Source: Deltaproteobacteria bacterium (GTDB lineage Bacteria; Myxococcota_A; JAADFL01). Taken from it: DNA of 64,000 bases. The notes beneath the pieces were generated by a model, which saw nothing but the letters and a program-made list of their open reading frames with translations, was not told the origin of the DNA and searched no databases. Of this stretch, positions 34,729-50,542 are shown in pieces (the stretch's first letter is position 1; every line of letters begins with the position of its first letter). The stretch spans positions 22,970 through 86,969 of the forward strand of contig JAADFL010000167.1 in NCBI GenBank assembly GCA_013152945.1, read 5' to 3'. A program made the translations under genes and the position numbers.

Positions 34729-36645
34729 CTACTTTATCTGCGCCATTAGTTTTTCCGCCTCCTTATGTGTGGCGGAATTTTTTCTGGTTATGGACATGGC
34801 TCGTGTACACAGCCTCCTCGCCTTGTCCGTATTTTCATTATCCAGTGCCTGCTTGGCTTTTTCCAACATCCGGTTCGCAGCACTCTCGAGTTTCAACAGG
34901 CCTCTTAAGGCGATTATCTCGTCCGGACTTGCATCCAGGGCTTTCTGAAAGTCATCAAATGCATCTTCATACATTTCTTTCGACACTGAATCCTGTGCCT
35001 TTTCAATGTATCCCCTGGCCAGGTTTGTGGCAATCTCCCTTGCGAAAAAACTCTTGGGCGATCCCGGGGGCATAATCCTCGTGTCTGCATCGAGGGCGGC
35101 TTTCCATTCTTTTTTTGCATCATCGATTCTGCCCTGGAACAATGAACTCTGGCCCGACGTGAATTTGCCGCGTACTACGAGCATGAGCTTACGGGCTATT
35201 TCCGCCTTTTGCAGGATCTCACCCTTGACCCTATGACGGGCAATCAGGCGCTCGAGTCTTTTCAAAGCTTCATCGATATCTCCCGCAAAGTATCTCTTGT
35301 ACGCAGGCCTTAAAATTTTTGGAATGCCTTCAAGAGACAACCTTACTATTCCACGGCCCTTTGGTGATTTGTACGGCTTGAAAAAGATCCTCCTGCTCTT
35401 TAGGTGCTTTTCACAATCCTCCACCCAATCCACGGCACGACTGTCATCCGGTTTGATAGCCAGGTACATCACCAAAAAACGGTGGGCCTGCTCGAACCTA
35501 CCCCTGCGGTATGCACGCCTGCCTTGCTCCAGGTATATTCGACTCAATTGTTCGTCAAGCTCCTTCATCTTGGGTTTGGCCAATGAATAGTAGAAGCTGT
35601 CCCTTGGTATCTTGCGAAACGCCTGCCTCGCCTCTTCCTTTCTGCCCAGATCGAACAACATTGCCGCTTCGTTGAAGAGTTTTGCATTTTTACGCTCTTC
35701 CTCGAGATGCTTTTTCATGTTGAGTGCGCTCTGGTTCAGCGGCTCCGATGCCAGGACCTTTTGGATCAGTTTTTCCGCCTCGTCGAATTTTCCCTTGGAC
35801 ATATAGTTCTTTACCCCAAGGAGATCCGTTTCCGTTGACTCGAAACTATCCTGCTCTACGACACCGCTGGTTTGGGTATTGCCTCCGGAGCGGACCAGTA
35901 CGCCAATCAGTACCAACAAGATGATGATTACGCCGACACCGGGCAAAATAATCTTCCAGTGCAGCTTCACCTGTTTCGTAATCTTTGCCACCAGTCTCCT
36001 TCTCGTAACTTCCCGGTCGTACATGAAACGCATACGTATTGCACCAAGCTGTATAACGTCACCGTCGCGAAGAGCCACTTCCTCGATTTCCTTGCCGTTT
36101 ACCTTTGTACCTGTCCTGCTCGCCAAATCCTGGAGAACATACGCGCCCCCTTCCTTGATTATCTGCGCATGCTCCGGCGAAAGAGATGCATGATCCAGTA
36201 TAATGGCATTCGTTCCGGCCCTGCCCAAGGGAATGGCATCTGCTGTCAGGGGATACTCGGTTCCGCGTTCATTGCCGTTCAGCACCAAAAGCCGGGCGAC
36301 ATTGTCGTACGCCAGATCTCCAAAACCGTCATCCGATTCACCAAGCTCATCATCGGCATTATCTAGAAAAAGGATGAAAGATCCTATCAGGACCTTGGAT
36401 GTTTCGTCGATCGCCACCGGTTCCTTGATTAATTCACCGTCCACAATGGTTCCGGCTGCACTTCCCAGGTCTTCAACGAAAAGATAGCCTTCCTGATCAA
36501 AGAAAAACCGGGTATGCTTACGGGAAACATCCGGCGCATCCAGGATTACATTGCATCCTTCATCCCTTCCCACCAAGAGTTCCTCAAAATCCAAAGGGTA
36601 CTCGAACAGGTTCCCGACAGCATCTTTAACAAGCAGCCTCAACAT
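34729..36645 (-). CDS. Membrane protein with two FHA domains and TPRs, 638 aa
   Basis: Two forkhead-associated phosphopeptide-binding domains lie at about 20-95 (LLVGRDEGCNVIL, SRKHTRF, GSAAGTIVDG) and 135-205 (IPLGRAGTNAIIL, SPEHAQI, SRTGTKVNG). The second has Pro-Glu-His in place of the usual Ser-x-x-His motif. A membrane helix follows at about 230-252, then about 350 residues of TPR-like helices. FHA domains bind phosphothreonine, so a Ser/Thr kinase is expected elsewhere in the genome. It starts seven bases after the FHA-CpaF ATPase gene, in the same operon, and may link phosphorylation signals to the secretion ATPase. Confidence 0.8.
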   Translation of the reverse strand: MLRLLVKDAVGNLFEYPLDFEELLVGRDEGCNVILDAPDVSRKHTRFFFDQEGYLFVEDLGSAAGTIVDGELIKEPVAIDETSKVLIGSFILFLDNADDELGESDDGFGDLAYDNVARLLVLNGNERGTEYPLTADAIPLGRAGTNAIILDHASLSPEHAQIIKEGGAYVLQDLASRTGTKVNGKEIEEVALRDGDVIQLGAIRMRFMYDREVTRRRLVAKITKQVKLHWKIILPGVGVIIILLVLIGVLVRSGGNTQTSGVVEQDSFESTETDLLGVKNYMSKGKFDEAEKLIQKVLASEPLNQSALNMKKHLEEERKNAKLFNEAAMLFDLGRKEEARQAFRKIPRDSFYYSLAKPKMKELDEQLSRIYLEQGRRAYRRGRFEQAHRFLVMYLAIKPDDSRAVDWVEDCEKHLKSRRIFFKPYKSPKGRGIVRLSLEGIPKILRPAYKRYFAGDIDEALKRLERLIARHRVKGEILQKAEIARKLMLVVRGKFTSGQSSLFQGRIDDAKKEWKAALDADTRIMPPGSPKSFFAREIATNLARGYIEKAQDSVSKEMYEDAFDDFQKALDASPDEIIALRGLLKLESAANRMLEKAKQALDNENTDKARRLCTRAMSITRKNSATHKEAEKLMAQIK

Positions 36646-36652
36646 TGATCAC

Positions 36653-38431
36653 CTAGGCCCTGAATATGGAGATGTCCAGGGGCACCTTTCTCTTGCGAAG
36701 CTCATCATAGAACTTTGGAATAAATCCGGTGGGCTTGAATCTTCCTACAACCTTGCCTTTATCGTCGTACCCGGTCATTTCAAATAAAAATATGTCCTGC
36801 AATGTTATTACATCACCTTCCATACCTGTGACTTCGACGATATTGGTGATTTTTCTCGAGCCGTCAGGCATCCTGCTCTGGTGAACGATAATATCTATCG
36901 CACTGGCTATCTGCTCCCTGATCGCTCTTACCGGCAAATCCATCCCGGACATGAGGACCATGGTCTCCAGCCTGGAGAGAGCATCCCTGGGTGAATTGGC
37001 ATGTGCAGTGGTCAATGAACCGTCGTGGCCTGTGTTCATGGCTTGCAACATGTCCAGGGCTTCACCTCCACGGCACTCGCCAACTATGATTCGATCGGGC
37101 CTCATGCGAAGGGCGTTCCTAACGAGGTCCCTGATTACTATCGCGCCCTTTCCCTCGATGTTCGGAGGACGTGATTCCAATGAAACGACATGGTCCTGCT
37201 TGAGTTGCAGTTCCGCTGCATCTTCAATGGTCACTATCCTTTCGCTTTCATGAATAAATGATGAAAGCAGGTTCAACGTAGTGGTCTTTCCGGAGCCGGT
37301 GCCCCCGGAGATTAGAGCATCCTGCCTGTTTTCGACGCAGACCTTTAGGAACTTCACCATGGCGTCATCAAGTGTTCCGAATCGCACCATGTCATCCACG
37401 GAAAACATTTCCTTTCTGAATTTGCGGATGGTTATAGCCGGCCCCTTGATGGATAACGGAGGTATTATGGCATTCACCCGGGATCCGTCTTTCAGTCTGG
37501 CATCGACCAGGGGTGAGCTCTCATCTATTCTCCTGCCGAGCGGCGCTACAATCCTCTCGATTATTCCATATACCGCCGCATTACTGGAAAATTTTTTGTC
37601 AGTAGCTTCGAGCTTGCCATCTCGCTCGACGTAAATCCGGTCCGCTCCATTAACCATTATTTCGGTTACGGTCGAATCGGCCAGGAGTTCCTCCAACGGG
37701 CCGAGCCCCAGAGCCTCGTTCAGGACATCCCTCATCAGTTGTTTTTGGCTCAGGCCGGCAGGGATAGCGCCTTTATTGGCCATGGATGCAACAATACTTC
37801 TGACAGTCCTGGACGCCTTTTCGCGAAGAGCCTCGTCTCCAAGCTTGGTGACATCGAGTCTCCTCAGGTCCATGGCGTCTATCAGTTTCTCATGAACTGT
37901 TCGTAACAGGCTGGAATATGACCCGGCCTCATCTGATCCATGACTCAAAGAACCGGCTGTATCCCCCGCAGGCTTTTGACGGGTCCGTCCCGACAGCCTT
38001 CCGGTATTCTTAATCGGTCTCACCGGCTTGACAGGTCCGGCGGCGGGTTTCGAGGGCTTCTTGGCCGGGGGCTTCTTTTTAAGCGGCAGGTCTTCCGGCA
38101 CAGCCCTTTGGGTAGCCTCGGTTATTTCCCGTTCGTCCTGCTCTTTAGACTCTACCTGTAAAGTATAGTCACCCAATGTAACAATGTCACCGGAATGAAC
38201 GACCTTGGGCTTGGCGATACGCTTGCCGTTTACCAGCGTGCCGTTTGCGCTGCCGAGATCTGCAATAACCACCCGGCCTTCATGAACTACCAGTTTGGCA
38301 TGCCTCCTGCTTACACTTCCGGCAGGCAGAACCAGATTGCAATCGCTTGATCTGCCTATAATCACCTGGGTCCTTTCGAACTCCTTGATATTCGCCGTTC
38401 CCCCGGGCGCCTGTATCCTGATTCTTAACAA
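36653..38431 (-). CDS. FHA-fused CpaF/TadA-type secretion ATPase, 592 aa
   Basis: Residues about 1-90 form an FHA domain ([33 protein letters not shown]). A Lys/Pro-rich linker follows, then a CpaF-type type II/IV secretion ATPase core from about 175: [18 protein letters not shown], Walker [13 protein letters not shown], the Asp box [10 protein letters not shown], Walker B region [21 protein letters not shown], and the His box [15 protein letters not shown]. CpaF proteins power Tad pilus assembly or related export. The start is TTG with GGAGG five bases before it. The FHA fusion suggests regulation by phosphothreonine binding. No TadB/TadC membrane partners or pilin are encoded in the window. 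Confidence 0.88.
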
Positions 38432-38445
38432 AAAGACCTCCGAGT

Positions 38446-39906
38446 TCAGTCGAAAACGTCGTATCCCACCTGATCCTTTGCCTTCTTGTACCGGTTCTTC
38501 ATGTCCTTAATCATCTTCTTTATTCTTTCCGTCTCAGGATTAACCACACGGGGCGTAACGAATATCAGGAGTTCCGACTTTCGCTCCAGGAACGCCCTTG
38601 ACTTAAAAAGTTCTCCCAGTATCGGAATATTTCCAAGAAACGGGAATTTTTCAACATCCTTTTGCTCAACGTTCGAGAACAAACCTGACAACACGATTGT
38701 CTCGCCATGACGCACGGTTACATTGGACTCGGCCTTCCTGGTAATGAAGGCAGGTATGTTCATCACCGCATTCGACCAATCGATATCCGAAACCTCGGTC
38801 ATCATCTTCATCTGGATATTGCCCTGGCGATCCGCCAATGGCTTCAGTTCCAGTTTTACCCCGTATTCCTTCCATTCCACGGTAGACGTGTTGGCCGTAA
38901 CCATGGGCACGGGAATTTCACCTCCTGCAGTGAACTTCGCCTCCTCTCCACTTGCACACACCAACTTGGGCTGTGCAAGGACCCTGGCATAACCGTCCTG
39001 GAACAACATCTTGATGGATGCATTGGTTCGCGCCAATCCCGTGACAAATCCATACTTGCTGCTCGTATTGACAGGTACTGTGCTGAAATTTCCTGTCTGC
39101 CATTGGGGCTCCCAGAAATTCCACTGCAAGTAGGCATTCCCGGTAGCGGTTATTATTCCAGGCCAGTTGAACCCGAATTCGTCGTCGGATTTCCGTTTTA
39201 TTTCCACGAAGTTTACTTCTATGAGCACCATGCGCTTAATACCGACGCCCAGCAAGTTTTCAACTTTTTCTCCCATGGCCTTGGCTATCATTTCCGCCTT
39301 TTTCAGGTCTGACCTGGATTCGACCGATCCCTCGAGAAAGATGGTGGTGCCGACCACGACCGCCCTTGTATCCTTCAACCCGTTCTCCACCAGCCTGGTG
39401 TTGAGCTGATCTGCAATAAGCTTCTTCGCATTCGGGTTCAATTTAACAAACGACGTAACCTGGCTGTAAAGCTTGGTGATACTCTCGACTCTCTCGAAAT
39501 CGTCCGTGGTATAGGCGGTCCCATCAAGTATGACCCGGTCTCCAACCACCCTTACACGGATACCTTCCCTGTCTCCCAGCAGTTTTATGACCTCCCTGAC
39601 CACTTTTTTCGGGTCCTCGGCGGTTACGTGCACATCGTATGTCAACCGCGTGCCGTCCCGCTTCCAAATGGTCATATTGGTCGACCCCTGTCCTTTGCCC
39701 ACGAGTAGTATTTGTTTCCTGTTGATTACCCTTACGTCGGCGACACTAGGATCTCCAATAGCCACCTTCCTCAGGTTGTTGACCCTTAGCACTGATTGTT
39801 GACCGACAACGAGCCGCACCGTGCTGTGCTGTGCCAAAGAATCAGATGAAGCAAGTGTCGTAATAGCCAACAAGATCCCTGCCAGACAATGTACTTTATG
39901 ATTCAC
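38446..39906 (-). CDS. Tad-type secretin (CpaC/RcpA-like), 486 aa
   Basis: A signal peptide (about 1-25) directs it to the outer membrane. The N-terminal secretin/TonB short domain (VRLVVGQQSVLRV, KVAIGDPSVADVRVI) is followed by BON-like regions (about 100-210) and a C-terminal secretin core (about 220-460: FQDGYARVLAQPKLVCASGEEAKFTAGGEIPVP, GETIVLSGLF, FPFLGNIPILGELFKS). In Tad systems this protein forms the outer-membrane channel. The GTG start at 39906 has GGGAGG just upstream. It leads an operon with the FHA-CpaF ATPase (14-bp gap) and the FHA-TPR protein. Confidence 0.9.
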   Translation of the reverse strand: MNHKVHCLAGILLAITTLASSDSLAQHSTVRLVVGQQSVLRVNNLRKVAIGDPSVADVRVINRKQILLVGKGQGSTNMTIWKRDGTRLTYDVHVTAEDPKKVVREVIKLLGDREGIRVRVVGDRVILDGTAYTTDDFERVESITKLYSQVTSFVKLNPNAKKLIADQLNTRLVENGLKDTRAVVVGTTIFLEGSVESRSDLKKAEMIAKAMGEKVENLLGVGIKRMVLIEVNFVEIKRKSDDEFGFNWPGIITATGNAYLQWNFWEPQWQTGNFSTVPVNTSSKYGFVTGLARTNASIKMLFQDGYARVLAQPKLVCASGEEAKFTAGGEIPVPMVTANTSTVEWKEYGVKLELKPLADRQGNIQMKMMTEVSDIDWSNAVMNIPAFITRKAESNVTVRHGETIVLSGLFSNVEQKDVEKFPFLGNIPILGELFKSRAFLERKSELLIFVTPRVVNPETERIKKMIKDMKNRYKKAKDQVGYDVFD

Positions 39907-40058: not shown

Positions 40059-40460
40059 CTACCCGTTCAGTAGTTTGGCTATGCATGCAATCACGTAGTC
40101 CTTATCAATGGGTTTCGGCACAAAAGCCTCTGGGGGCGGGATTTGACGTCTCGTATTGATAAAACGTCTGAACACATCGGGATCTCCTCCAAGGCCCGTC
40201 ACCCCGGTAATTACGACCACCGGTATGGCCGACGTTTCAGGCCTTTCCTTGATCTCACGATAGAATTTTATTCCGGATTTTCCCGGCATCGAGATATCAA
40301 GGGTAATGAGATCGGGCTGGAATCGCTTCATGACTTCCAGGCCCTCTTCCCCATTCGAGGCGGCCTCCACCAAGTAACCATTGTCCTCCAGCAATACCTT
40401 TATAAAAGTTCTTACATCCGCCTCATCGTCCATAACAAGTATCTTTTTCTTTTCCTTCAT
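40059..40460 (-). CDS. Single-domain response regulator (receiver only), 133 aa
   Basis: A CheY-like receiver with the acidic pair in ILVMDDEAD, the phospho-acceptor Asp in PDLITLDISMPG (about 53), a conserved Thr in VVVITG and the Lys in AFVPKPID. An insertion of about 15 residues (DPDVFRRFINTRRQIPP) sits between the beta-4 and beta-5 strands. There is no output domain, so it signals by protein contact. It lies 46 bases after hmcF and 152 bases before the secretin operon promoter region; whether it belongs to the Hmc operon is unclear. Its histidine kinase is not in the window. Confidence 0.88.
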   Translation of the reverse strand: MKEKKKILVMDDEADVRTFIKVLLEDNGYLVEAASNGEEGLEVMKRFQPDLITLDISMPGKSGIKFYREIKERPETSAIPVVVITGVTGLGGDPDVFRRFINTRRQIPPPEAFVPKPIDKDYVIACIAKLLNG

Positions 40461-40506
40461 TGTTAAACCTCTATTGTAAAGCCCCTATTGCAAAACCCCT
40501 ATCGCC

Positions 40507-42138
40507 CTATTGCTCCCAAGCCCTTATGAAGCCGGGCTTGACATCGGTCATTGCATTCACAATCAGTTCGACCAATCCTCCATAATGTATGCCGTTGTTT
40601 TCGGTAAGGCCATAATATTCGAGGATGTCCCTGAACTGTCCCTTGCAGTTGGAGCATGGAGCGCATATGTACTTGTACGTTTCAGAGCTGCTGTCTTCAC
40701 CCTTGAATGCTTCCAGAATCTGTTTCATCTTCATCCTGCCTGAAACCTTCATGCGCCAGTCCACAAAGTTATGCCCTGAATGAATTGCAAAACCGCTGCC
40801 TCCGCCGCAACAATAGTTATTGACTCCATGTGGAGTCATCTCCCTGAACCTGGGAGCTATCTTGCGCAATACTTCACGTTGAGGCTCCACTATCCCCATC
40901 ATGCGGACCATGTTGCACGGATCATGTAAGGTGACGGGAAAGTCGTTACGCGAGGGATCCAGCTTCAGCTTGCCGCTCATCACGATATCCCTTAATAACG
41001 GCATGGAGCTTTCCCTGGGTATGTTCAAATCACCCGTCAAGATCCGGTCGGCAATGATTGTCAATGCCTTGTGAGCATGACCGCATTCACCGAACACGAT
41101 CTTTTTCACGCCAAGCTTCTTTGCCGCCAGGGCGTGCTTGATCACTACCTTGGCAAGCATGGCATCATCATAGAACAGGCCGTAGTTGACCGAATCATAC
41201 CCCAGGGCCTCGCTGGAAAGCGTCCAGGAGATACCCGCAGCCTGCAGGATCACGGCAAAAGCCGCCGGATTTTCGGGCCAGGATAGAATCTCTCCCGCAT
41301 TATGGATTAACAGTATATCAGCGCCCTGTACATCCCAGGGAGTCTTGATATCCATTCCGGTAATATCCGATGCATCCTCATCGATGAAGTCCATGTTATC
41401 CTTGACCACTTCCGGGTTCATACCTGTAGACGAGCCAACCCTAAGCTGCTGCATGCTGCCCTTTTCATGCAGTTCTTTGGTAGCCCAGCCCAACTCCTGG
41501 CTGAACAATTTGCGTATCTCCCTTGCAACAAGACCGTTATCGCAGCCTATAGGACAAGCCTGTGCACATCTCCTGCACAGGTTACAACGATATGACAGTT
41601 CGGCCAACCGGGCCACGGTCTTCCAATTCAGGTCTATGTCGCCATGTTGCCAGCGACCGAAAAACCTGCCTCCCGGCTTCAAGTACTTGAAATAGATACG
41701 TCGTAGGATCTCGGTCCTATAGGTCGGCCTGTACAGCTCGGCCCGGCCCGAGGCCTGAAAGATGTGGCAAGCCTCACTGCAGGTGTGGCATTTCGTGCAG
41801 TGCTCCATGGTCAACTTGAAGGGCTGCAGGAATACCCAGTTATTTTCCTTGGTAAAAAGTTTCTCAAGTCCTTGCAGGAATTGCTTGATATACTTTTTCT
41901 CCTCTTCTTTGCTTTTGGGCTTGGGTATGTTCAGCAACAGGGTATTGTCCAAATCAGACTCGTATTTTTCTTTTGCACTGTCTGACAGGGGCTTCCAGGG
42001 AGGCTCTGATTTCGCCTTGTCATCAAGAGGTTCCGGCAGAGGCATCAAGTCATCGTTCGTGAGCTCTAAAAGCCTGTCACTATCCTTGGAAAAATCTTCA
42101 ACCTTCAGGTCTGTGTTTTTATTATCGATCTCTTTCAT
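40507..42138 (-). CDS. hmcF: HmcF-like iron-sulfur / CCG-domain protein, 543 aa
   Basis: Two 4Fe-4S motifs occur (CTKCHTCSEACH and CNLCRRCAQACP at about residues 113 and 197), followed by cysteine-rich CCG-type regions like those in HdrD, DsrK and HmcF: GECGHAHKAL, then HDPCN...NYCCGGGSG...CAPCSNCKG. CCG domains bind an unusual [4Fe-4S] centre and, in HdrB/HdrD, reduce disulfides. HmcF faces the cytoplasm and is the cytoplasmic electron exit or entry point of the Hmc complex. The start at 42138 overlaps the hmcE stop (ATGA). A Glu/Asp-rich extension of about 90 residues precedes the first cluster. Confidence 0.82.
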   Translation of the reverse strand: MKEIDNKNTDLKVEDFSKDSDRLLELTNDDLMPLPEPLDDKAKSEPPWKPLSDSAKEKYESDLDNTLLLNIPKPKSKEEEKKYIKQFLQGLEKLFTKENNWVFLQPFKLTMEHCTKCHTCSEACHIFQASGRAELYRPTYRTEILRRIYFKYLKPGGRFFGRWQHGDIDLNWKTVARLAELSYRCNLCRRCAQACPIGCDNGLVAREIRKLFSQELGWATKELHEKGSMQQLRVGSSTGMNPEVVKDNMDFIDEDASDITGMDIKTPWDVQGADILLIHNAGEILSWPENPAAFAVILQAAGISWTLSSEALGYDSVNYGLFYDDAMLAKVVIKHALAAKKLGVKKIVFGECGHAHKALTIIADRILTGDLNIPRESSMPLLRDIVMSGKLKLDPSRNDFPVTLHDPCNMVRMMGIVEPQREVLRKIAPRFREMTPHGVNNYCCGGGSGFAIHSGHNFVDWRMKVSGRMKMKQILEAFKGEDSSSETYKYICAPCSNCKGQFRDILEYYGLTENNGIHYGGLVELIVNAMTDVKPGFIRAWEQ

Positions 42139-43037
42139 TTCTCGATTTCCTCCGTGGCCACATCCACCCAGGATTTCTTTCCATCTCCCTTGATATGGGG
42201 CGCCGACCAGGATACAGGGTAAGCAAGAGCCGCTTGGATCCTTTTTTCCAATTTGCTTCCCGGAAGGTTCGGCTCGTCGTCCCATCGTATCTTGTCCCAT
42301 GTAAACCATTTCATGAAGAAGTGTGACATGTGGGTCAAAGGAATATATGCGAGGACCAATAGTGAAAGGATCAGCAAGGCCTTTGACGGACCAGGCATTT
42401 CAGGATGAGCGCTCCACGTAAGAAAAGAAACAATATACGCCGACATCGGGCCGAAGCCGCTGCTCGAAAAACCCACAGTGAGCATGAGCACGGAGATACC
42501 CACAAATAGCAGGAGATTGAAGTAGGCTGATATTGGAGAATACTTCTTCAGTCCCTTGTCAAAAAGCCTGCGAAAAAACAGCCCGGCCGAGCCGAACAGG
42601 CAAAGAATGGCTCCTGCAATGCCGGTGAATTGTACCAGATAGGACAGGAAGACACCCCCATGTTTCACATTGAACACGGATGACAGCGCTGTAATCACCA
42701 GCAAGCCGGCAAAGGCCGCAATAATGTATAGTCCGAAGTGAAACGGGAAAGAACTCCACCAAAGCTTTCTGTTGTGATGAAACAAAGCCTTGAGAAACAA
42801 GAACTCGGTCAGGAATTCTTTGAGCTTGTTCAACTGGGAGTGCTCCTGTGGCCTGTTTCTCCAGTCCTGGTTCTCCATGTACGAACCTCCATGTTCGAAT
42901 CCCTTGTCGTGAGCAACCGGGTAAATCTCCCAGCGAAGGTGTACAGGCATCCTCGCTGTCCTAATAAACCTGACCAAGACAGCCGTAATGAATATGACGA
43001 TACACGACAATGTAAGTACATGAAGCGGCTCGATCAT
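42135..43037 (-). CDS. hmcE: HmcE-like b-type cytochrome membrane subunit, 300 aa
   Basis: An integral membrane protein with about six spans and histidines placed within or next to helices (LFHHNRKLWWSSFPFHFGLY, YIPLTHMSHFFMKWF), as in the NarI/DsrM/HmcE family of di-haem cytochrome b subunits that exchange electrons with menaquinone. It is followed directly by the CCG-domain partner hmcF with an ATGA overlap, the same order as in Hmc (hmcE-hmcF) and Dsr (dsrM-dsrK) systems. It lies 13 bases after rrf2. At 300 residues it is longer than the D. vulgaris HmcE as I recall it (about 226), owing to a cytoplasmic N-terminal loop and a C-terminal tail. Confidence 0.8.
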   Translation of the reverse strand: MIEPLHVLTLSCIVIFITAVLVRFIRTARMPVHLRWEIYPVAHDKGFEHGGSYMENQDWRNRPQEHSQLNKLKEFLTEFLFLKALFHHNRKLWWSSFPFHFGLYIIAAFAGLLVITALSSVFNVKHGGVFLSYLVQFTGIAGAILCLFGSAGLFFRRLFDKGLKKYSPISAYFNLLLFVGISVLMLTVGFSSSGFGPMSAYIVSFLTWSAHPEMPGPSKALLILSLLVLAYIPLTHMSHFFMKWFTWDKIRWDDEPNLPGSKLEKRIQAALAYPVSWSAPHIKGDGKKSWVDVATEEIEK

Positions 43038-43050
43038 TCACAGACTCCTT

Positions 43051-43512
43051 TCAACAGTTTCTCGTGACATTTTTGCCAAAGGTCTTTTCCCGGAAAGCGT
43101 ACATCTCCTTTTCCGACAAGTCGGATATTGTGTACTCGTTGAGCACATCCCACATCCTGGCATTCACCAAGCCCCACATCTTCCTGGAAGAGCAGACATC
43201 CTTATAAACACATTTCACTTTCGGGTCCAGGCAATCCAGGAGCCTCGGCTCTTCACCGGCGGCTTCAACGACCTTGGCGACCTTCAGGGATTCCGGCGGC
43301 AATGCAAGGTAATAACCGCCTTTCTTCCCAGCCACACTCTTTATTATTCCACTGCTTTTGAGCGGCACCACGAGTTGCTCCAGGTATCTCATGGAGATCC
43401 CCTGGTCCTTTGATACCCTCTTGAGCTGGACCGGATTGTCACTGCCGGCATGGTCGCACAAGTATACTACCAGCCTCAAAGAGTACCTGATCCTTGTCGA
43501 GAGTTTCAGCAT
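43051..43512 (-). CDS. Rrf2-family iron-sulfur transcriptional regulator, 153 aa
   Basis: The winged-helix DNA-binding half starts MLKLSTRIRYSLRLVVYL, typical of Rrf2/IscR/NsrR proteins, and has KDQGISMRYLEQLVVPLKSSG as recognition helix region and KGGYYLALPP as wing. Three cysteines in CLDPKVKCVYKDVC match the cluster-binding loop of the family (spacing x6, x5), so it probably senses redox state or NO through an Fe-S cluster. The start at 43512 agrees with the family N terminus; a longer in-frame extension would run into its promoter. Family precedent: Rrf1/Rrf2 genes end the hmc operon of Desulfovibrio. Here the gene sits between hmcD and hmcE with its own promoter. Confidence 0.88.
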   Translation of the reverse strand: MLKLSTRIRYSLRLVVYLCDHAGSDNPVQLKRVSKDQGISMRYLEQLVVPLKSSGIIKSVAGKKGGYYLALPPESLKVAKVVEAAGEEPRLLDCLDPKVKCVYKDVCSSRKMWGLVNARMWDVLNEYTISDLSEKEMYAFREKTFGKNVTRNC

Positions 43513-43633
43513 ACCGGCCCCATGGCAGCCTGTAGAGACTGAAAAGTTGATATTTTGGTCGGCATTAATTTTATTTTTATTTCTCCATAGTTCCCTTCTA
43601 TCACCGAGCACTCCTATCGGAATAACCGGAGCT

Positions 43634-43662
43634 AATATATCCACAGGTTGAAGACATGTCAA
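43634..43662 (-). promoter_or_regulatory. Near-consensus sigma-70 promoter of rrf2-hmcEF
   Basis: On the minus strand a perfect TTGACA (43662-43657) is separated by exactly 17 bases from TATATT (43639-43634). A start site near 43627 gives a leader of about 115 bases before rrf2. It is one of the best promoter matches in the window. Confidence 0.7.
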
Positions 43663-43667
43663 CAGGT
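43643..43667. promoter_or_regulatory. Dyad over the rrf2 promoter -35, candidate Rrf2 operator
   Basis: GTTGA (43648-43652) and TCAAC (43659-43663) are perfect inverted arms around a six-base centre, with outer AC...GT matches extending the dyad to 25 bp. It covers the -35 hexamer and much of the spacer, an ideal place for autorepression. Binding by the adjacent Rrf2 protein is inferred. Confidence 0.45.
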
Positions 43668-43722
43668 TTGCTGATAAATGTGACTTGCCGTGTTGGCCGT
43701 GTGCCCCTATTTGGTTCGGTAA

Positions 43723-43779
43723 ACCGGGCGCGGGATCATTGCAACGATCACCCGGTCGTTCAAATCGGCCCTAACCGGG
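43723..43779 (-). promoter_or_regulatory. Three-segment alternative-pairing element between hmcD and rrf2
   Basis: On the minus strand CCCGGT (43779-43774), ACCGGG (43756-43751) and CCCGGT (43728-43723) follow one another. The middle segment can pair with either flank (loops of 17 and 22 bases), so two exclusive hairpins are possible. A GATC-GTTGCAAT-GATC inverted repeat lies in the second loop. This is the layout of an attenuator or RNA switch, but no clear U tract follows. Confidence 0.4.
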
Positions 43780-43885
43780 CACATCCCCTGTTTCAATTCA
43801 AATATTCGACACTCAAATAAAATCTAATAATTCCCAATAAATTACATCAGACCAAAGGGGAAACCAAAGACAAAAAGGAAACAGG

Positions 43886-44023
43886 CTATTCCCTCCTGTT
43901 ATCCTCGCCGGTCAGGAAAATCCAGAGTGCTACCAGGAAAAGCAGGAGAAAGGCTGCCGACAGGTACCCTGATCCCTTGATAAAGGATGTGAAGTCCTGC
44001 AATACATGAAATCCATTTTCCAT
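43886..44023 (-). CDS. hmcD: HmcD-like small membrane subunit, 45 aa
   Basis: A small open frame begins two bases after the hmcC stop codon, with GGAG about ten bases before its ATG. It encodes a 45-residue protein: a polar start (MENGFHVLQDF), one hydrophobic helix at about residues 19-38 (LSAAFLLLFLVALWIFL) and a charged end (GEDNRRE). In Desulfovibrio hmcD encodes a similarly tiny one-helix subunit in exactly this place, between hmcC and hmcE. The position, size and helix together make the assignment good although sequence similarity cannot be measured on so short a protein. Confidence 0.75.
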   Translation of the reverse strand: MENGFHVLQDFTSFIKGSGYLSAAFLLLFLVALWIFLTGEDNRRE

Positions 44024-44024
44024 T

Positions 44025-45188
44025 TCAGTGTGACTCCTCGAAATCCGGATGATGGCGGATAATTGGGAAGAATTCGGACACGTACCTGAATATCACCAAC
44101 CCGAGGGTAATCAGGAAGACCACCACAACATACTCCATCCAGGACGGGAAATATCGTTCATTGACAGGAAACTTCCAGTTGTAAGCTACAACGGCAACAT
44201 TTAGCCTGTTGAAGATGATCCCGAGCACGGTCCACAATGCAGTATACCTGATGAGCGTTGCATTTCTTTCCCTGTAACCAAAGGCATAAACCATGCACGG
44301 AAGAAGCACGAAACCAATTACCTCTGTAAGGTACAGTGCGCCCCAACCGGTTGCAAGGTAATGCCATTTGTCACCCAGTGCCAAATCCACGACCTTTAAT
44401 GCAAAATAAATGAACAACGCCAGGGACCCGGCCTTGCCCAGCCCAATGGTCAGCTTGTCCAGTTTGTCCTTCGACACTTCCATGCGATGGCCGAAAACCC
44501 TCTTGCTAATCAAACCAATGAGTATGATCATCGAGATTCCCCCGGCCGCGCTGGAAGTGAAGAAATGTATCGGAATATATGGCGAATACCACAGGGGATG
44601 AAGCTTGCCGGGAACGCTTAGAAAGAGGGCGCCCAGGGTGGACTGGTGAAGTAATGAAAGGAACAGTCCAAAGATGGTAAACGCGACGGTTGCCGCTTTA
44701 AGGATCTTCCGCCACCGCTTCCAGCCCAACCATTCGAAGCCCACGGGTGTCAGTTCCAGAAACTGGGTCGTATAGTACAAGCCCACGCACAATCCTATCT
44801 CGAAAAGGGCCGACGTAGTCCCGGCTTGCACGAAAAAGGGATAATATATTCTCCAGGGCCGTCCAAGATCGAATATTAAAATCAAGATGAACAGGGAATA
44901 GCCCAGAAAACCACTCAACACCGCAGGCCTTACCAGGCCATGGTATTCGTCCATGCCGAAAATATAGACTGCAGTCGTCAGGGTGTACCCGCTGGCTGCA
45001 AGCGCTACGAAGACCAGCTTGAACCCGGTCCAAAGACCCCAGGCCGTAGTATTGTTCAAGTTCGTGGCATATCCAAGGCCTTTGGCAAACCTCAATAAAA
45101 CTATTATTCCACCGAACAACAGTATGAGTCCGCTGATGATGTTGAAGGGCGTCAGCAGCTTTATCTTGTGTTCACCCGCGCTTGTCAT
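44025..45188 (-). CDS. hmcC: HmcC-like NrfD-family quinone-interacting membrane subunit, 387 aa
   Basis: About ten membrane helices with NrfD/HybB/HmcC family character: TTAWGLWTGFKLVFVALAASGYTL, AVLSGFLGYSLFILILIFDLGRPW, LHQSTLGALFL, and a late FGYRERNATLIRY. This family exchanges electrons with menaquinone and pairs with a periplasmic Fe-S protein, here HmcB. The start at 45188 follows GGAGG by six bases and overlaps the end of hmcB by 17 bases. It lacks haem ligands, as usual for the family. Confidence 0.9.
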   Translation of the reverse strand: MTSAGEHKIKLLTPFNIISGLILLFGGIIVLLRFAKGLGYATNLNNTTAWGLWTGFKLVFVALAASGYTLTTAVYIFGMDEYHGLVRPAVLSGFLGYSLFILILIFDLGRPWRIYYPFFVQAGTTSALFEIGLCVGLYYTTQFLELTPVGFEWLGWKRWRKILKAATVAFTIFGLFLSLLHQSTLGALFLSVPGKLHPLWYSPYIPIHFFTSSAAGGISMIILIGLISKRVFGHRMEVSKDKLDKLTIGLGKAGSLALFIYFALKVVDLALGDKWHYLATGWGALYLTEVIGFVLLPCMVYAFGYRERNATLIRYTALWTVLGIIFNRLNVAVVAYNWKFPVNERYFPSWMEYVVVVFLITLGLVIFRYVSEFFPIIRHHPDFEESH

Positions 45189-46233
45189 CAGGAGCCTCCG
45201 ATCCGTGGGCACCAGAAGGCGCGGCAGGTGGCGCCGCACCCCTGTCATGCACCTTATCCAGGGCCTCTTTCATTTCTATCCCGGCCTTGAGCAATTTTTC
45301 TTCCATCTCAATGGACATGGCTTTTTTTGTTTCCTTGAGCTTGCGGCTCAACTCTTCTTTGTGCAGGTTTTCCTTTCTCTTTGTAAATGCATAGAAGCCC
45401 GCAAGAAGACCGGGAATCGTCGCGGCTGCAATTGGAGCCAAGGAGAGGAATCCTGTTGTCAGGTTTGGCAAGGGCTCATACATGGGATCCTTCGGAAGAT
45501 CCAAGTCCTCGGGCGGTAAGCCTGCAATGGTGAGCCAGCTCGTGCCTCCATACTCATTTTCTCCAAATATATGGTGTACGTACTTGCCAGGGTTCTTTCG
45601 TATCCTGTCACGGGCCAATTCCAGCAAATCTTTCCTCTTGCCGTATTGAATGGCACCGGTCGGACAAGCTTCACTGCAGGCAGGCTTCAATCCCTTCTTG
45701 ATCCTTGGATAGCACATGGTGCAACGCGCCACCTTGGGAGTGAAAGGGTCACTGAATTCGTAAGATATTGCGTAATAAGGGCAGGCAAACACGCAATACC
45801 TGCAGCCTACACAAACGTCCGGATTATACAGGACCGGACCTTCGGGCGTCTTGGTAAAGGCACTTACGAAACACACGGATGCGCAGGTAGGCTCCTGGCA
45901 GTGCATGCACTGGTGTTTTCTGAAAACAGGAGGCTTGTTGCCTTCGGCTTTTTTATACCTGTTTACAACGGTATATTGCTTGTCGCTCACCTTTCTCTTG
46001 TGGTCGAAAACAGATTTGTCACCAATGGGTGGTTCGACCGGGGGCAGATCGTTCACCTCGTTACATGCCTTCTCGCATTGCCTGCACCCAATACACAATG
46101 TCGAGTCATACAGCAGCCCCGTGGTGTCTTCGTAACCCTTGAACCTCCGGACACTGTTGGCCTTGGCCGTTCCTGCGGCAGCAAGGCTCCCTATTGCAAC
46201 CCCTTTTATGAAATCTCTTCTGGAGACGCCCAT
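45172..46233 (-). CDS. hmcB: HmcB-like Tat-exported ferredoxin subunit, 353 aa
   Basis: The N terminus has a twin-arginine motif (SRRDFIKG) and hydrophobic stretch, so the folded protein is exported by Tat. Four 4Fe-4S sites are visible: CIGCRQCEKAC, CMHCQEPTCASVC, CVGCRYCVFAC and CTMC...CSEAC. A C-terminal helix (about 255-275) anchors it in the membrane with a long charged tail after it, like HybA and HmcB. It should carry electrons between the cytochrome HmcA and the membrane subunit HmcC. It lies four bases after hmcA. Confidence 0.9.
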   Translation of the reverse strand: MGVSRRDFIKGVAIGSLAAAGTAKANSVRRFKGYEDTTGLLYDSTLCIGCRQCEKACNEVNDLPPVEPPIGDKSVFDHKRKVSDKQYTVVNRYKKAEGNKPPVFRKHQCMHCQEPTCASVCFVSAFTKTPEGPVLYNPDVCVGCRYCVFACPYYAISYEFSDPFTPKVARCTMCYPRIKKGLKPACSEACPTGAIQYGKRKDLLELARDRIRKNPGKYVHHIFGENEYGGTSWLTIAGLPPEDLDLPKDPMYEPLPNLTTGFLSLAPIAAATIPGLLAGFYAFTKRKENLHKEELSRKLKETKKAMSIEMEEKLLKAGIEMKEALDKVHDRGAAPPAAPSGAHGSEAPDDKRG

Positions 46234-46237
46234 TTGC

Positions 46238-47743
46238 TCACCTGCTTTTCCCTATTTTCCCGGCATGGCAGTCTTCACACTTTGTGGTCAGGTTCATTGC
46301 CTGATGGCATCCAATACACTGGCGGTGATAGGCAGCCATCAACCCGGGCTTGTCAATCGTTGCAGAGCCTTGCTTTTGATGGCATGCCTCGCATCTTGGC
46401 GGCTTATCTCCCACTGGACTCCTATGGTGACAGGCAGAACAATAAAGATTGGCAGAAGCATGAAATGCCGCTGCTTCGCCGTTCATTGCATAAGATTCGA
46501 GTTTTTTCATTATCCTGGCATGAGGGAACACAGCAGGTTCGAATTTGTCGCTTAATGTGCCGATTTTTATTTCCCCTGGAATTTCATATTGTCTACCCTG
46601 CCGGGAGACAGATACCTGGTCTATTGCAACTTCACTGTTGTGGCAATAAGCACAGGTATGCTCGGACCGCCTGTTTTTAACCAGAGCATGGCAGCCGGCA
46701 CACCGGGGATTGCTTGATGCTGTCTTGGTGTGGCAGCCGATGCAGGACCTGTCGGATCCTTCATGGTGGAAAATATATCCGGGCAGGAGCCATGCTCCCT
46801 TGTTGCTGCCCTCAAACGGATGGCACTTGCGACACGATTTTTCCTCTTCCCTGTGGCACTTGGTGCAAAAACCCGCCCGCTTCTCGTGAGCCTTGTGATC
46901 GAACACCACCGGAGACAATGAAGACTGGTCGAATTTCAACAGCACCAAGTCCTTTTGACCAGCCATGAGCCGTGGTGGGTTGTTCATTTTTCTTATCGAT
47001 TCAAAACGTTCACTTTTGTGACAACCCTCGCAATCAGTGGGCCCGGCGCTCCCCCCCTGCTCTTTTCTCAACAGATGGCATTTTACACACAGCCCATGGG
47101 CTGCATCCTTTGTGTTCAACCCGCCCGTAGGCATTTTTTCCTTGTGGCACGCCGAGCAAACAGCTTCCTTGCCCTTTACGTACTTGATGCCGCCATGTCC
47201 GTCAGGGGAATGGTGGCACAAGCCGCAGCTCTCATCGCCCAATACGCCGACATGTCTTTGGTGTAGTGAAAAATCGAACCCGGGATGAATCCAGCCCACG
47301 GGCATAGCTGCCTGTTTTTCCAACCTGTCCGGAATGAAATGACACCTGCCGCAGGAGGTTTCAGGACCGCTTTTTCGGCCTTCCCGCCTCTTTGCGACGT
47401 GACATGAAATACATACATTGTGGTAAGATTCCTTGAGCTGATCCGGTTCGCCTGCATTCGGGGTGCCCTTCAGCCCGGGCACCCATTTTCCTTCCCCGGC
47501 CTTTTCGTGGCACTTGTCGCAGCTTTGATTTCCCAACACCCTGACATGCATTTCATGGGGAAACCCGACTGCAGGGCGTTCACTTTCCGCTCGTGGCAGG
47601 GCGCGGATTACAACCGAATAGGGATAGGCGTTTTCTTCGCCGTAATCCCCCTTTTCACCACACGACAAGGACGGGGCGACAAGGCAGGTCGAACCCAGAA
47701 TCACGGGCAAGAATCTGTAAATTATTGTGCCAGTCGACTTCAT
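46238..47743 (-). CDS. hmcA: High-molecular-weight cytochrome c with 16 haem motifs (HmcA-like), 501 aa
   Basis: Sixteen CxxCH haem-binding motifs are present, from CDKCH near residue 75 to CEDCH near residue 492. D. vulgaris HmcA also has sixteen haems, and nine-haem or four-haem relatives belong to other complexes, so the count supports an Hmc assignment. A signal sequence covers about residues 1-28; the cysteine at residue 28 (SLSCG) could make it a lipoprotein, though the lipobox is imperfect. Histidines outside the motifs can supply the sixth ligands. It would receive or deliver electrons in the periplasm, probably with hydrogenases, formate dehydrogenases or cytochrome c3 partners not seen here. 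It begins three bases after metV. Confidence 0.92.
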   Translation of the reverse strand: MKSTGTIIYRFLPVILGSTCLVAPSLSCGEKGDYGEENAYPYSVVIRALPRAESERPAVGFPHEMHVRVLGNQSCDKCHEKAGEGKWVPGLKGTPNAGEPDQLKESYHNVCISCHVAKRREGRKSGPETSCGRCHFIPDRLEKQAAMPVGWIHPGFDFSLHQRHVGVLGDESCGLCHHSPDGHGGIKYVKGKEAVCSACHKEKMPTGGLNTKDAAHGLCVKCHLLRKEQGGSAGPTDCEGCHKSERFESIRKMNNPPRLMAGQKDLVLLKFDQSSLSPVVFDHKAHEKRAGFCTKCHREEEKSCRKCHPFEGSNKGAWLLPGYIFHHEGSDRSCIGCHTKTASSNPRCAGCHALVKNRRSEHTCAYCHNSEVAIDQVSVSRQGRQYEIPGEIKIGTLSDKFEPAVFPHARIMKKLESYAMNGEAAAFHASANLYCSACHHRSPVGDKPPRCEACHQKQGSATIDKPGLMAAYHRQCIGCHQAMNLTTKCEDCHAGKIGKSR

Positions 47744-47746
47744 GAC

Positions 47747-48427
47747 CTATTTCACCTTTTCGTACCTGTCTCGATAAGGTTCCTGTACCACGGTTCTCCT
47801 TGTCTGGTTTCGCCATTCCCTTGCCGGCCGGACTTTTGTTATGAGTTCCAACCTGTTCTGTCCCTTGAGCCGCTTAAATATCTCGTACCATGCACAGGGA
47901 ATGTTGGGGTCGACTTCGCAGGTGCCGTCACTTCTGGTTCCTCCGCACGGCCCGTTGAACAGACTCTTTGCACATCTCGTCACCGGACAGATGCCGCCGG
48001 TCTCCCCGAGCACACAATCACCGCAAGTTCTGCAGCTCTCTTCGTACCAGCCTACATCCTTGTCCACACCCACGAACGTAGTGTTCAATGCAGGTAATAT
48101 CGGCACATAAGGGTACCTGTCGGCCACGAACTGTACGCCTGCGCCGCAAGCCATGGATAATACGGCGTCATAATCTTTCACCATGTGATCCATTTCTACG
48201 AAAAAGTTGGCATTGCATTGGCGCTCTATGGTGTACTCAAAAATATCTTTCTTCTTTCCCGACTCGGCCAGTTTGGATCGAATTTCACCACTTAATTCCA
48301 TGACCTCCCGCTGTCCTCCTGCAAGGCATATGGAGGTACACCCGCCGCATCCGATGGCCAGGATCCTGTCGAATCCGTCGATCAGTCCCAGTATTTCTTC
48401 CAGGGGCTTTCTTTCCGCTATTATCAT
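47747..48427 (-). CDS. metV: MetV-like zinc/iron-sulfur partner of methylene-THF reductase, 226 aa
   Basis: The protein matches the 'methylene-tetrahydrofolate reductase C-terminal' (MetV) family: GCGGCTSICLAGG near residue 26, CNANFF, SMACGAGVQFVADR and the cysteine-rich CRTCGDCVLGETGGICPVTRCAKSLFNGPCGG block. In acetogens MetV forms a complex with MetF and accepts electrons from other redox modules (RnfC2 in Acetobacterium, HdrABC-MvhD in Moorella) instead of simple use of NAD(P)H. GGAGG stands nine bases upstream. It is enclosed by redox subunit genes on both sides, so its partner here is expected to be the cytochrome b/HdrC pair or the Hmc complex. Confidence 0.88.
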   Translation of the reverse strand: MIIAERKPLEEILGLIDGFDRILAIGCGGCTSICLAGGQREVMELSGEIRSKLAESGKKKDIFEYTIERQCNANFFVEMDHMVKDYDAVLSMACGAGVQFVADRYPYVPILPALNTTFVGVDKDVGWYEESCRTCGDCVLGETGGICPVTRCAKSLFNGPCGGTRSDGTCEVDPNIPCAWYEIFKRLKGQNRLELITKVRPAREWRNQTRRTVVQEPYRDRYEKVK

Positions 48428-48448
48428 GCCGATTCACCTCCACCGGCC

Positions 48449-48853
48449 CTAGAGCCAGCTCTCCATGTTTCCAGCCTCGTCAAAGCCAGGGAAGACTCCC
48501 TGGGATCTGCATACGCTCCTTGCAAGGGAAATCATGGCCGGTATGTCCACTCCTACAGGGCAGTAACATCTCTGGCACAGCACACAACTCTTCCAAACTA
48601 TTTCTTTCATGTCTTCAAGCAGTTCCATGCGAATTTTGCCCTTTTTCCTGTACATCTTGCCCAGGGAATTTATCACCTTGTATGAAGGCATGTACTTTGG
48701 ATCCCTGTTATTGGACATGTAAAGAAAACAACTTTCCGCGCACAAGGAGCAATGCACGCAGTGAGACAGGTACATCTTCATCCTGGTCTCTTGTCTCTCC
48801 AGGATTCGGTTGATCCGGTTTTGATCAACAGTATTCTTCTGTTCAGCTCCCAT
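48449..48853 (-). CDS. HdrC-like ferredoxin subunit, 134 aa
   Basis: Two 4Fe-4S motifs are seen, CVHCSLCAESC (about residue 32) and CVLCQRCYCPVGV (about residue 88), arranged as in HdrC and the N-terminal half of TmcB/HmcF proteins; the second lacks one classic spacing position. The C-terminal CCG domain of larger relatives is absent. The ATG at 48853, with AAGGAG eight bases before it, starts one base after the stop of the cytochrome b gene. It probably wires that membrane cytochrome to MetFV in the cytoplasm. Confidence 0.75.
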   Translation of the reverse strand: MGAEQKNTVDQNRINRILERQETRMKMYLSHCVHCSLCAESCFLYMSNNRDPKYMPSYKVINSLGKMYRKKGKIRMELLEDMKEIVWKSCVLCQRCYCPVGVDIPAMISLARSVCRSQGVFPGFDEAGNMESWL

Positions 48854-48854
48854 C

Positions 48855-49571
48855 CTACCTGCTCCTTGCAACTACTTTACCCGCGCCGGTGTTCCATCTC
48901 CTTGACCCTTTCCTGAAAGAGTACTCGCCCGGGATCAAGACCCTGTACAAGACAAAGAACAGGGCATGCCCCAACCTCGTAAAGGGAATCAAGACGAGCA
49001 TGAGTTCACCCATGAGCATGTGGGCCGTCAATACCTTGTTGTAGTCGAACACCTTGTGATAGGCCATTACCCCTGTTATGAAAGGAGCCGCTGTAATAAT
49101 CAATATAAGGTAGTCGTAAACACCGGAAATGATGCGAACCCTTTTTATAAAAAGTCTTCTGAAAAGGAATATGCCCAGAACGGACAGCACGATGATTGCC
49201 AGGGCATCCGAAAGCCAATCCGGAAAAGAGGGCAATCCAAAACCAAGGGAAATCCTGAAAAGCTCGTTGTGCGCCAACAAGAAAATCGGGACAAGGAACA
49301 ATAACACGTGAAAAATAAGCGTTGCAACAGACATGAGGGGATGCAAATGGAACACGGACCGCCTGTATCTTTTTACAAGTTTATCCCATTCATATCCCAG
49401 TCTTTCCTGTATCTTTTCAGGAGCCTTGGGCTTGGCGGGAAGAACAGGTGTTGCCGCATCGTTCTTGGATGTCATCTTGAAGAAACGAACGGTTTGTACA
49501 ACGAGCCCGATGAAAAAAACAGCGAACGCCACCCAGACAAAGGGACCACCTGCTAGCTGGTGCAGATTCAA
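48855..49571 (-). CDS. NarI/HdrE/TmcC-like b-type cytochrome, 238 aa
   Basis: About five membrane helices: one at the N terminus (about 10-30), then after a 50-residue cytoplasmic loop VFHLHPLMSVATLIFHVLLFLV, LSDALAIIVLSVLGIFLF, YLILIITAAPFITGVMAYH and LTAHMLMGELMLVLIPF. Histidines in helices fit di-haem b cytochromes that use menaquinone. The start is TTG, overlapping the metF stop by four bases (TTGA), with GGAGG seven bases upstream. This is a second quinone-reactive cytochrome in the same operon, distinct from HmcE, and together with the HdrC-like protein forms an HdrE/HdrC-type pair. Confidence 0.78.
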   Translation of the reverse strand: MNLHQLAGGPFVWVAFAVFFIGLVVQTVRFFKMTSKNDAATPVLPAKPKAPEKIQERLGYEWDKLVKRYRRSVFHLHPLMSVATLIFHVLLFLVPIFLLAHNELFRISLGFGLPSFPDWLSDALAIIVLSVLGIFLFRRLFIKRVRIISGVYDYLILIITAAPFITGVMAYHKVFDYNKVLTAHMLMGELMLVLIPFTRLGHALFFVLYRVLIPGEYSFRKGSRRWNTGAGKVVARSR

Positions 49572-50542
49572 TCTTCTTCCTCCTCGCTCTCTTCACTTGT
49601 ATCTCCACCTGCATCGGATTTGATGTTCGGTCTCGGCAAAAGTCCTGCCTGCTCCACTATTTGGGGCACCTTGTGTTCCCACTCTATGGCCATGAGATGG
49701 ACACCTGCCACACCCTTCATCTCCTTGAATTCCTGAATCTGCTCGCAGGCGATCTTGATTCCCTCGGCAGCCCTTTTCTTCTTTTCCACTCCCTTGAGCC
49801 GTTTTATCAGGTGGTCCGGAACATCCATTCCCGGAACCTTGTTCTTCATGTACTTGGCCATGGGAAGGCTCTTGAACGGGGTCACGCCGGCCATGATGTA
49901 AACCTTGTCGGTCAGTCCCATGTCTTCGGCCATCTTTATCCACTGCCTGAACCGGTCCATGTTGTAGATGCACTGGGTCTGTATGAAGTCGGCTCCTGCG
50001 GCAACCTTTTTCGCCAACCTGTGCACCCGCCATTCAAACGGTTCACCGAACGGGTTGGCTGCTGCGCCGATGAACATTTTCGGAGGACCGTCTATTTCAT
50101 CTCCTCCAAGAAAACGGCCTTCGTCCCTCATGGTCTTTACCATCGAGATGAGCTGTATCGAATCAATGTCGAAAACACCCTTGGTGTTTGGGTGATCTCC
50201 AAAGCTCTGGTGATCGCCGGACAGGCACAACATGTTCTTGATTCCATGGGCATATGCGCCAAGTATGTCCGCCTGCATGGCCAGCCTGTTCCTGTCTCTG
50301 CATACCATTTGAAAATTGGGCTCCAGCCCCTCTTGAACTACCAGGATCGACGTGGCCCAACTGGACATTCTGACCACAGCCGTCTGGTTGTCCGTAATGT
50401 TTACGGCATCGACCATGCCCTTCAGAAAGGCAGCCTTCTTCTTTACAACCTGCACATCGGTCCCTCGCGGGGGACCCAATTCTCCGGTTATTGCAAAGTG
50501 CCCTGACTTGAGCACGGCCTCGAGGTTGCTACCTGATTTCAT
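49568..50542 (-). CDS. metF: 5,10-methylenetetrahydrofolate reductase MetF, 324 aa
   Basis: The TIM-barrel flavoprotein MetF family is recognised from FAITGELGPPRGTDV, DAVNITDNQTAVVRMSS, NMLCLSGDHQSFGDHPNTKGVFDIDS, GAAANPFGEPFEWRVHRLAKKVAAGADFIQTQCIYN and VYIMAGVTPFKSLPMAKYM. The GDHP motif and GADFIQTQ region hold flavin and folate contacts. It interconverts methylene-THF and methyl-THF, the step linking the C1 pool to methyl transfer in the Wood-Ljungdahl pathway or methionine synthesis. The start at 50542 gives the family-like N terminus; a longer frame upstream does not. The C terminus is a very acidic tail (SEESEEEED). It heads the operon shared with metV and hmcABCD. Confidence 0.92.
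   Translation of the reverse strand: MKSGSNLEAVLKSGHFAITGELGPPRGTDVQVVKKKAAFLKGMVDAVNITDNQTAVVRMSSWATSILVVQEGLEPNFQMVCRDRNRLAMQADILGAYAHGIKNMLCLSGDHQSFGDHPNTKGVFDIDSIQLISMVKTMRDEGRFLGGDEIDGPPKMFIGAAANPFGEPFEWRVHRLAKKVAAGADFIQTQCIYNMDRFRQWIKMAEDMGLTDKVYIMAGVTPFKSLPMAKYMKNKVPGMDVPDHLIKRLKGVEKKKRAAEGIKIACEQIQEFKEMKGVAGVHLMAIEWEHKVPQIVEQAGLLPRPNIKSDAGGDTSEESEEEED

Follow-up and report, generated by a model that had tools for sequence, protein, structure and literature searches.

A 64,000-nucleotide stretch of DNA from a Deltaproteobacteria bacterium (assembly GCA_013152945.1, contig JAADFL010000167.1, positions 22,970 to 86,969; hereafter, the window) carries an operon in which metF and metV, the genes of the methylene-tetrahydrofolate (methylene-THF) reductase MetFV, are tied genetically to genes for Hmc-type membrane subunits. 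Judging from its genes, this operon probably encodes a wired, membrane-integral methylene-THF reductase complex, whichever the direction in which it operates.

An operon of eight genes

Eight consecutive genes, from metF to hmcD, share the minus strand; the spacing between neighbors (5' to 3') is -4, +1, +21, +3, +4, -17, and +1 bases. This run had been predicted originally, with gaps of 21 bases or less or overlaps and with a gap before a downstream rrf2 gene, and both were found as described. No unread base (N) occurs anywhere in the window. The features are as follows:

49568-50542, minus strand: metF, methylene-THF reductase flavoprotein, 324 aa (PF02219, 137 bits)
48855-49571, minus strand: hmcE/tmcC-type diheme cytochrome b, 238 aa, with a TTG start that overlaps the metF stop (NCBIfam TmcC, 160 bits; HmcE, 147 bits)
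48449-48853, minus strand: CCG-less HmcF (Fe-S half), 134 aa, two cluster motifs (HmcF model positions 35-154 of 457)
47747-48427, minus strand: metV, Fe-S/Zn subunit, 226 aa (PF12225, 122 bits; partner-specific MetV clade)
46238-47743, minus strand: hmcA, 16-heme periplasmic cytochrome c, 501 aa (16 CxxCH; NF045713, 382 bits, cut-off 400)
45172-46233, minus strand: hmcB, poly-Fe-S protein with a twin-arginine translocation (Tat) signal and a C-terminal hydrophobic anchor, 353 aa (NF045715, 385 bits, cut-off 420)
44025-45188, minus strand: hmcC, NrfD-type membrane subunit, 387 aa (PF03916; NF045714, 476 bits, cut-off 550)
43886-44023, minus strand: hmcD-like one-helix protein, 45 aa (by position and one hydrophobic segment)
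43513-43885: 373-base gap between the MetFV-Hmc operon and the rrf2 unit, free of called genes up to the rrf2 ATG (43512)

The domain matches of metF and metV, encoded in one operon, identify a MetVF (type II) core. The 16-heme cytochrome of an Hmc complex is also present, as HmcA has the 16 heme motifs and finds its best solved-structure match in the 16-heme Hmc cytochrome 1h29 (E 1.5e-71). Its score falls just below the NF045713 cut-off, and its homologs at two other loci (L015 and L041) lie above it; a hydrophobic N-terminal segment makes a periplasmic location expected. HmcB carries the Tat motif SRRDFIK and a hydrophobic segment at residues 262-280, HmcC has 9 hydrophobic segments, and in L015 and L041 a relative of the hmcD-like protein is found at the corresponding position. 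HmcB, HmcC, and HmcE are homologous to the respective Hmc models, all with scores below the curated equivalog cut-offs (275 bits for HmcE). The four histidines H88, H101, H184, and H202 of HmcE, a protein with 5 hydrophobic segments, are invariant in 44 homologs and fit two b hemes; two b hemes on four histidines resemble NarI-type proteins. The original prediction had recognized a cytochrome b here, but had missed that NCBIfam identifies it as a real HmcE/TmcC-type protein. Likewise, the product of 48449-48853, read earlier as an HdrC-like ferredoxin, is indeed an Fe-S protein, but its identity is the N-terminal third of HmcF.

The CCG domain (PF02754) that would make a full-length HmcF was not found in the window HmcF, and instead of a full-length TmcB with a tetraheme TmcA, the window has the 16-heme HmcA with a truncated HmcF/TmcB. 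Domain and NCBIfam model searches found no RnfC-like gene in the operon and no genes for HdrA, HdrB, or MvhD. No solved structure related by sequence to MetV, HmcE, or the truncated HmcF was found.

Conservation of the CCG-less HmcF and its link to MetV

A scan of named genomes with the window MetF yielded a best 80 loci with 74-83% identity, mostly in records named as Desulfobacterales. The order metF-hmcE-hmcF(N)-metV-hmcA-hmcB-hmcC-hmcD, where hmcF(N) denotes the CCG-less gene, is complete in L015 and L041, which are independent assemblies, and is kept up to the contig ends in L016 and L017. The synteny is thus conserved, as the original prediction supposed. Contamination and misassembly were considered and rejected, given this shared order, the absence of N, and the kinship of the isoleucyl-tRNA synthetase: the single one detected in the genome is encoded on this contig, its nearest relatives are those of G007 (same phylum, 52%) and G058 (63%), and it argues against a mis-binned contig. 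A class-wide scan around the genome of L041 covered 3 genomes only. Automatic sorting of the 80 MetF loci placed hmcE/hmcF(N) on the metF strand in 14, and L075 has the module on the strand opposite metF; an HdrB/DsrK-like neighbor is found instead in 38/80. The core is joined to a tetraheme cytochrome in L047, L055, L059, L067, and L082, with the tetraheme type confirmed by a match to the TmcA model in L055 and L067, and stands with metFV alone in L054, L060, L063, L085, and others.

All 16 CCG-less HmcF proteins examined (that of the window and 15 others) stop just beyond their second cluster, whose motif is always CxxCxxCxCP. Among the roughly 70 relatives inspected that are full-length or of the Hdr type, none has this motif; full-length HmcF, TmcB, DsrK, and Hdr-type relatives have CxxCxxCxxxCP at the second cluster. 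In the tree, the CCG-less proteins form one clade beside HmcF and TmcB (support 86/80; 89% of bootstrap trees).

Genome scans with a profile built from the CCG-less proteins (A1) revealed a clear short-frame member in 31/395 sampled genomes of Desulfobacterota, the phylum of Desulfonema magnum, or in 33 with two weaker ones, a frequency of about 8%. The window's own phylum gave a single positive genome among 377, the present one; the one other match was a 713-aa frame. This phylum thus departs from the Desulfobacterota pattern. The label 'Myxococcota' that NCBI attaches to records named 'Deltaproteobacteria bacterium' is a default for this taxon name and carries no information on these genomes. 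This scattered distribution suggests a transfer of the cassette between phyla. Among 30 Desulfobacterota loci, metV lies within 1.5 kb of the CCG-less HmcF gene in 29, and the exception (L145) is at a contig end. A tetraheme cytochrome open reading frame is in the same block in 20/30, while hmcF(N) is followed by metV and metF with no tetraheme cytochrome in 8/30. The Tmc-like relatives of the cassette have a TmcA-like cytochrome, yet their TmcB is still truncated. Desulfotignum is one of the cassette-bearing genera. In the type strain Desulfocicer vacuolatum DSM 3385 (L138:4472-7396), the order is hmcE-hmcF(N)-tetraheme cytochrome-metV, and no metF was found in the 14-kb stretch around the module. 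The conserved core consists of MetV, HmcE, and the CCG-less HmcF and is widespread in Desulfobacterota, mostly with a tetraheme cytochrome; less common is the variant with all of HmcABCD. The original prediction caught this variant and missed the wider core.

The MetV proteins that adjoin a CCG-less HmcF form one group relative to other MetV proteins (1 change; support 93), within which the subset with a 16-heme HmcA is a clade (99). Each partner thus forms one linked clade, which indicates that MetV and the CCG-less HmcF changed together. The MetF tree does not sort by this linkage (7 changes), although MetF proteins of the five loci with a 16-heme HmcA do form a clade (99). This is expected if MetV is the docking subunit, as these trees lead us to infer. 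Linked and other MetV proteins alike retain all 13 cysteines. A cassette-specific C-terminal MetV tail was also considered and rejected as an artefact of cut local matches, since full frames have equal tails.

The operon might instead reflect co-regulation only: MetFV would be a soluble enzyme that exchanges electrons with ferredoxin or some other carrier, while the products of the Hmc-like genes, produced alongside it, would assemble into a membrane complex of their own. In Clostridium ljungdahlii and Sporomusa ovata, the MetVF enzymes are indeed soluble when purified and can take reduced ferredoxin as electron donor in vitro (PMC8760232, PMC9430772). However, metV adjoins the CCG-less HmcF gene in nearly every complete locus and the MetV sequence tracks the presence of that protein; moreover, the Hmc-like part would be partnerless without MetFV, as its HmcF has lost its cytoplasmic reaction half. 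We therefore regard co-regulation alone as unlikely.

Neighboring genes and related gene sets

The genes directly downstream of hmcD (40059-43512) are treated as a unit separate from the MetFV-Hmc operon:

43051-43512, minus strand: rrf2 regulator, first gene of the neighboring unit (PF02082, 103 bits)
42135-43037, minus strand: DsrM/NarI-like cytochrome b, earlier named hmcE, outside the core (PF02665; no HmcE match)
40507-42138, minus strand: DsrK-like Fe-S/CCG protein, earlier named hmcF, outside the core (DsrK 337 bits, HmcF 178 bits)
40059-40460, minus strand: response regulator that ends the rrf2 unit (PF00072, 75 bits), omitted from the unit as first listed

An assignment of the middle pair to hmcE and hmcF was rejected on these scores and on tree position, the DsrK-like product grouping with proteins of L112 and L125, far from HmcF. 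The DsrM-like product is 31-39% identical to products of genes adjoining DsrK-like genes in the same two loci. The separation rests on the 373-base gap, on the unit's own rrf2, and on L125, where a kindred rrf2/DsrM-like/DsrK-like set has no metFV within its roughly 4-kb stretch. The earlier picture of a complete HmcABCDEF beside MetFV consequently fails, as HmcE sits inside the MetFV block, HmcF is without its CCG half, and the two downstream genes are DsrMK-like. Further along, genes at 34729-39906, identified by reading their sequences only, encode a CpaF-like ATPase, a secretin-like protein, and proteins with FHA domains, and likely form a pilus or secretion cluster unrelated to the MetFV-Hmc finding.

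Two further MetFV pairs are encoded in the genome. The pair on contig C186 (L009:1674-9957) is divergent from a set of Hdr-like genes that includes an MvhD (FlpD) domain, a setting that resembles the Hdr-type methylene-THF reductase. The pair on C108 (L010:12877-14001, L011:2-4189) has an unusual setting, beside genes for LarA (lactate-racemase-like), Fe-S/MvhD-type, and FAD-oxidase proteins. A further Hmc-like set on C88 (L134:2225-7129) comprises a CCG protein, an HmcE-like, an HmcB-like, and an HmcC-like protein, the last with six CxxCH in frame.

Proposed electron path and direction, and known reductases

From the gene content and order, the domain loss, the conservation, and the co-clustering observed here, we infer a physical complex, an electron path, the use of quinone, and a direction. 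The cytoplasmic end of an ordinary Hmc or Tmc complex is the CCG half of HmcF/TmcB; MetFV seems to replace this head, because the HmcF in the MetFV block lacks it. The MetF flavin would exchange a hydride with methylene-/methyl-THF, and single electrons would pass through MetV to the two Fe-S clusters of the CCG-less HmcF, on to the diheme cytochrome b HmcE in the membrane, and to the 16-heme HmcA outside, which HmcB and the NrfD-type HmcC would connect to menaquinone. The whole path (methyl-THF, MetF, MetV, HmcF(N), HmcE, HmcA, HmcB/HmcC, menaquinone) would be reversible. HmcA might also bypass quinone and deliver electrons from methyl-THF to cytochromes of the outer membrane, in interspecies or extracellular transfer. 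Its expected periplasmic location would allow this, and syntrophic oxidizers that use the Wood-Ljungdahl pathway need an extracellular electron outlet; since the window version includes hmcBC, with a quinone-type NrfD protein, we consider such a route very improbable.

The search for Wood-Ljungdahl genes in the genome, a 4.84-Mb draft that is 94% complete, was positive. Carbon monoxide dehydrogenase/acetyl-CoA synthase (CODH/ACS) is encoded on C194, beside a delta subunit of the corrinoid iron-sulfur protein and a pterin-binding methyltransferase-type protein, and formyl-THF synthetase on C169. DsrAB, DsrC, DsrM, DsrK, and DsrP are on one contig (C217), and AprA is on C72. Given this gene set, with no [NiFe] hydrogenase detected, the complex would most likely oxidize methyl-THF in this host and pass the electrons to menaquinone or to cytochromes of the periplasm while acetyl-CoA is oxidized with sulfate. 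With E0' values of -200 mV for methylene-/methyl-THF and -74 mV for menaquinone (PMC6895022, PMC8578096), oxidation of methyl-THF by menaquinone is calculated to yield about -24 kJ per 2 electrons and could conserve energy. Relatives that possess a hydrogenase or formate dehydrogenase in the periplasm could use the device in reverse, to fix CO2.

It is possible, although less likely than not, that inward flow is the main work of the complex in this host as well, electrons from periplasmic H2, formate, or cytochromes passing through HmcA, HmcE, and the CCG-less HmcF to reduce methylene-THF for CO2 fixation with a scalar proton gain. It should be noted that this concerns direction only and is compatible with a wired complex. 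The reaction would yield about -41 kJ per 2 electrons from H2 (E0' -414 mV, against -200 mV for methylene-/methyl-THF), and its logic matches the chain of S. ovata (PMC9430772); in addition, the cassette-bearing genus Desulfotignum includes an autotroph (PMC4046663). However, no [NiFe] hydrogenase was found in this genome, G058, or G063, and direction may vary among hosts.

Several points weigh against a wired complex that oxidizes methyl-THF in this host. The scores of HmcA, HmcB, and HmcC lie just under the NCBIfam cut-offs, that of HmcE well under. The altered second cluster motif of the CCG-less HmcF could hold a different cluster or none. Four genomes (G072, G177, G404, and G233) have no metF in the stretch examined around the module, so that MetF need not be encoded with it, and the window MetFV may not carry the main flux, given the two other MetFV pairs. 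Finally, the negative hydrogenase result comes from an incomplete draft and covers the [NiFe] type only.

The methylene-THF reductase classes described are MetF alone, MetVF, MetVF-RnfC2, and MetVF-HdrCBA-MvhD (PMC9430772, PMC8760232). The type III enzyme of Acetobacterium woodii shares the MetVF core with an added electron-input subunit, but the partner in the window is a membrane complex, not the NADH-oxidizing RnfC2. The type IV enzymes of Moorella, Sporomusa, and Thermacetogenium share the MetVF core, an HdrC-like Fe-S partner, and a proposed membrane coupling (PMC9430772, PMC6895022, PMC8578096). Membranes of S. ovata can use H2 to reduce methylene-THF; their MetVF is bound loosely via MvhD and HdrCBA, and no membrane helix was found in any of these subunits (PMC9430772). 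In T. phaeum, membranes catalyze methyl-THF oxidation, with strong activity when benzyl viologen is the acceptor and weak activity when a quinone analogue is used (PMC6895022). In contrast to type IV, the window operon has no HdrA, HdrB, or MvhD, and has an integral membrane cytochrome b and a periplasmic cytochrome; because these are encoded there, no extra membrane link is required. The MetF-HdrABC described in Seep-SRB1g, for which a bifurcating type was proposed, also ties MetF to Hdr-like genes in sulfate reducers, but no Hmc or Tmc subunits are described there (PMC10553843).

Compared with the Hmc (HmcABCDEF) of Desulfovibrio, the window likewise has a 16-heme HmcA, homologs of HmcB, HmcC, and HmcE, and an HmcD-like protein in one operon, but it differs in the missing CCG half of HmcF, the inclusion of metF and metV, and the gene order. 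With Tmc (TmcABCD), the cassettes share a TmcC-type cytochrome b and, in most Desulfobacterota, a tetraheme TmcA-like cytochrome; they differ in the truncated TmcB and in having MetV, usually with MetF, in the operon, and the window has HmcABCD rather than TmcA. The original prediction that a MetFV-Hmc system had not been described was upheld, as no published MetFV with Hmc or Tmc subunits was found in the literature searched, which left subscription papers mostly outside. On balance, we lean toward a fifth type of methylene-THF reductase that is integral to the membrane and has MetFV in place of the CCG head of HmcF/TmcB; widespread in Desulfobacterota, it would let electrons pass directly, either way and with energy conservation, between the methyl branch of the Wood-Ljungdahl pathway and both quinone and periplasmic cytochromes.

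The membrane connection of methylene-THF reductase is an old open question in Wood-Ljungdahl bioenergetics, and for MetVF-HdrABC-MvhD the link was left unknown in recent reviews and experiments (PMC8578096, PMC9430772). The operon offers a concrete candidate for the missing link between MetFV and the membrane, with a cytochrome b, an Fe-S bridge, and a periplasmic cytochrome co-encoded with MetFV. As these genes recur in many genomes, including that of the Desulfocicer vacuolatum type strain, the question becomes testable, and the answer would bear on energy conservation in complete-oxidizing and autotrophic sulfate reducers.

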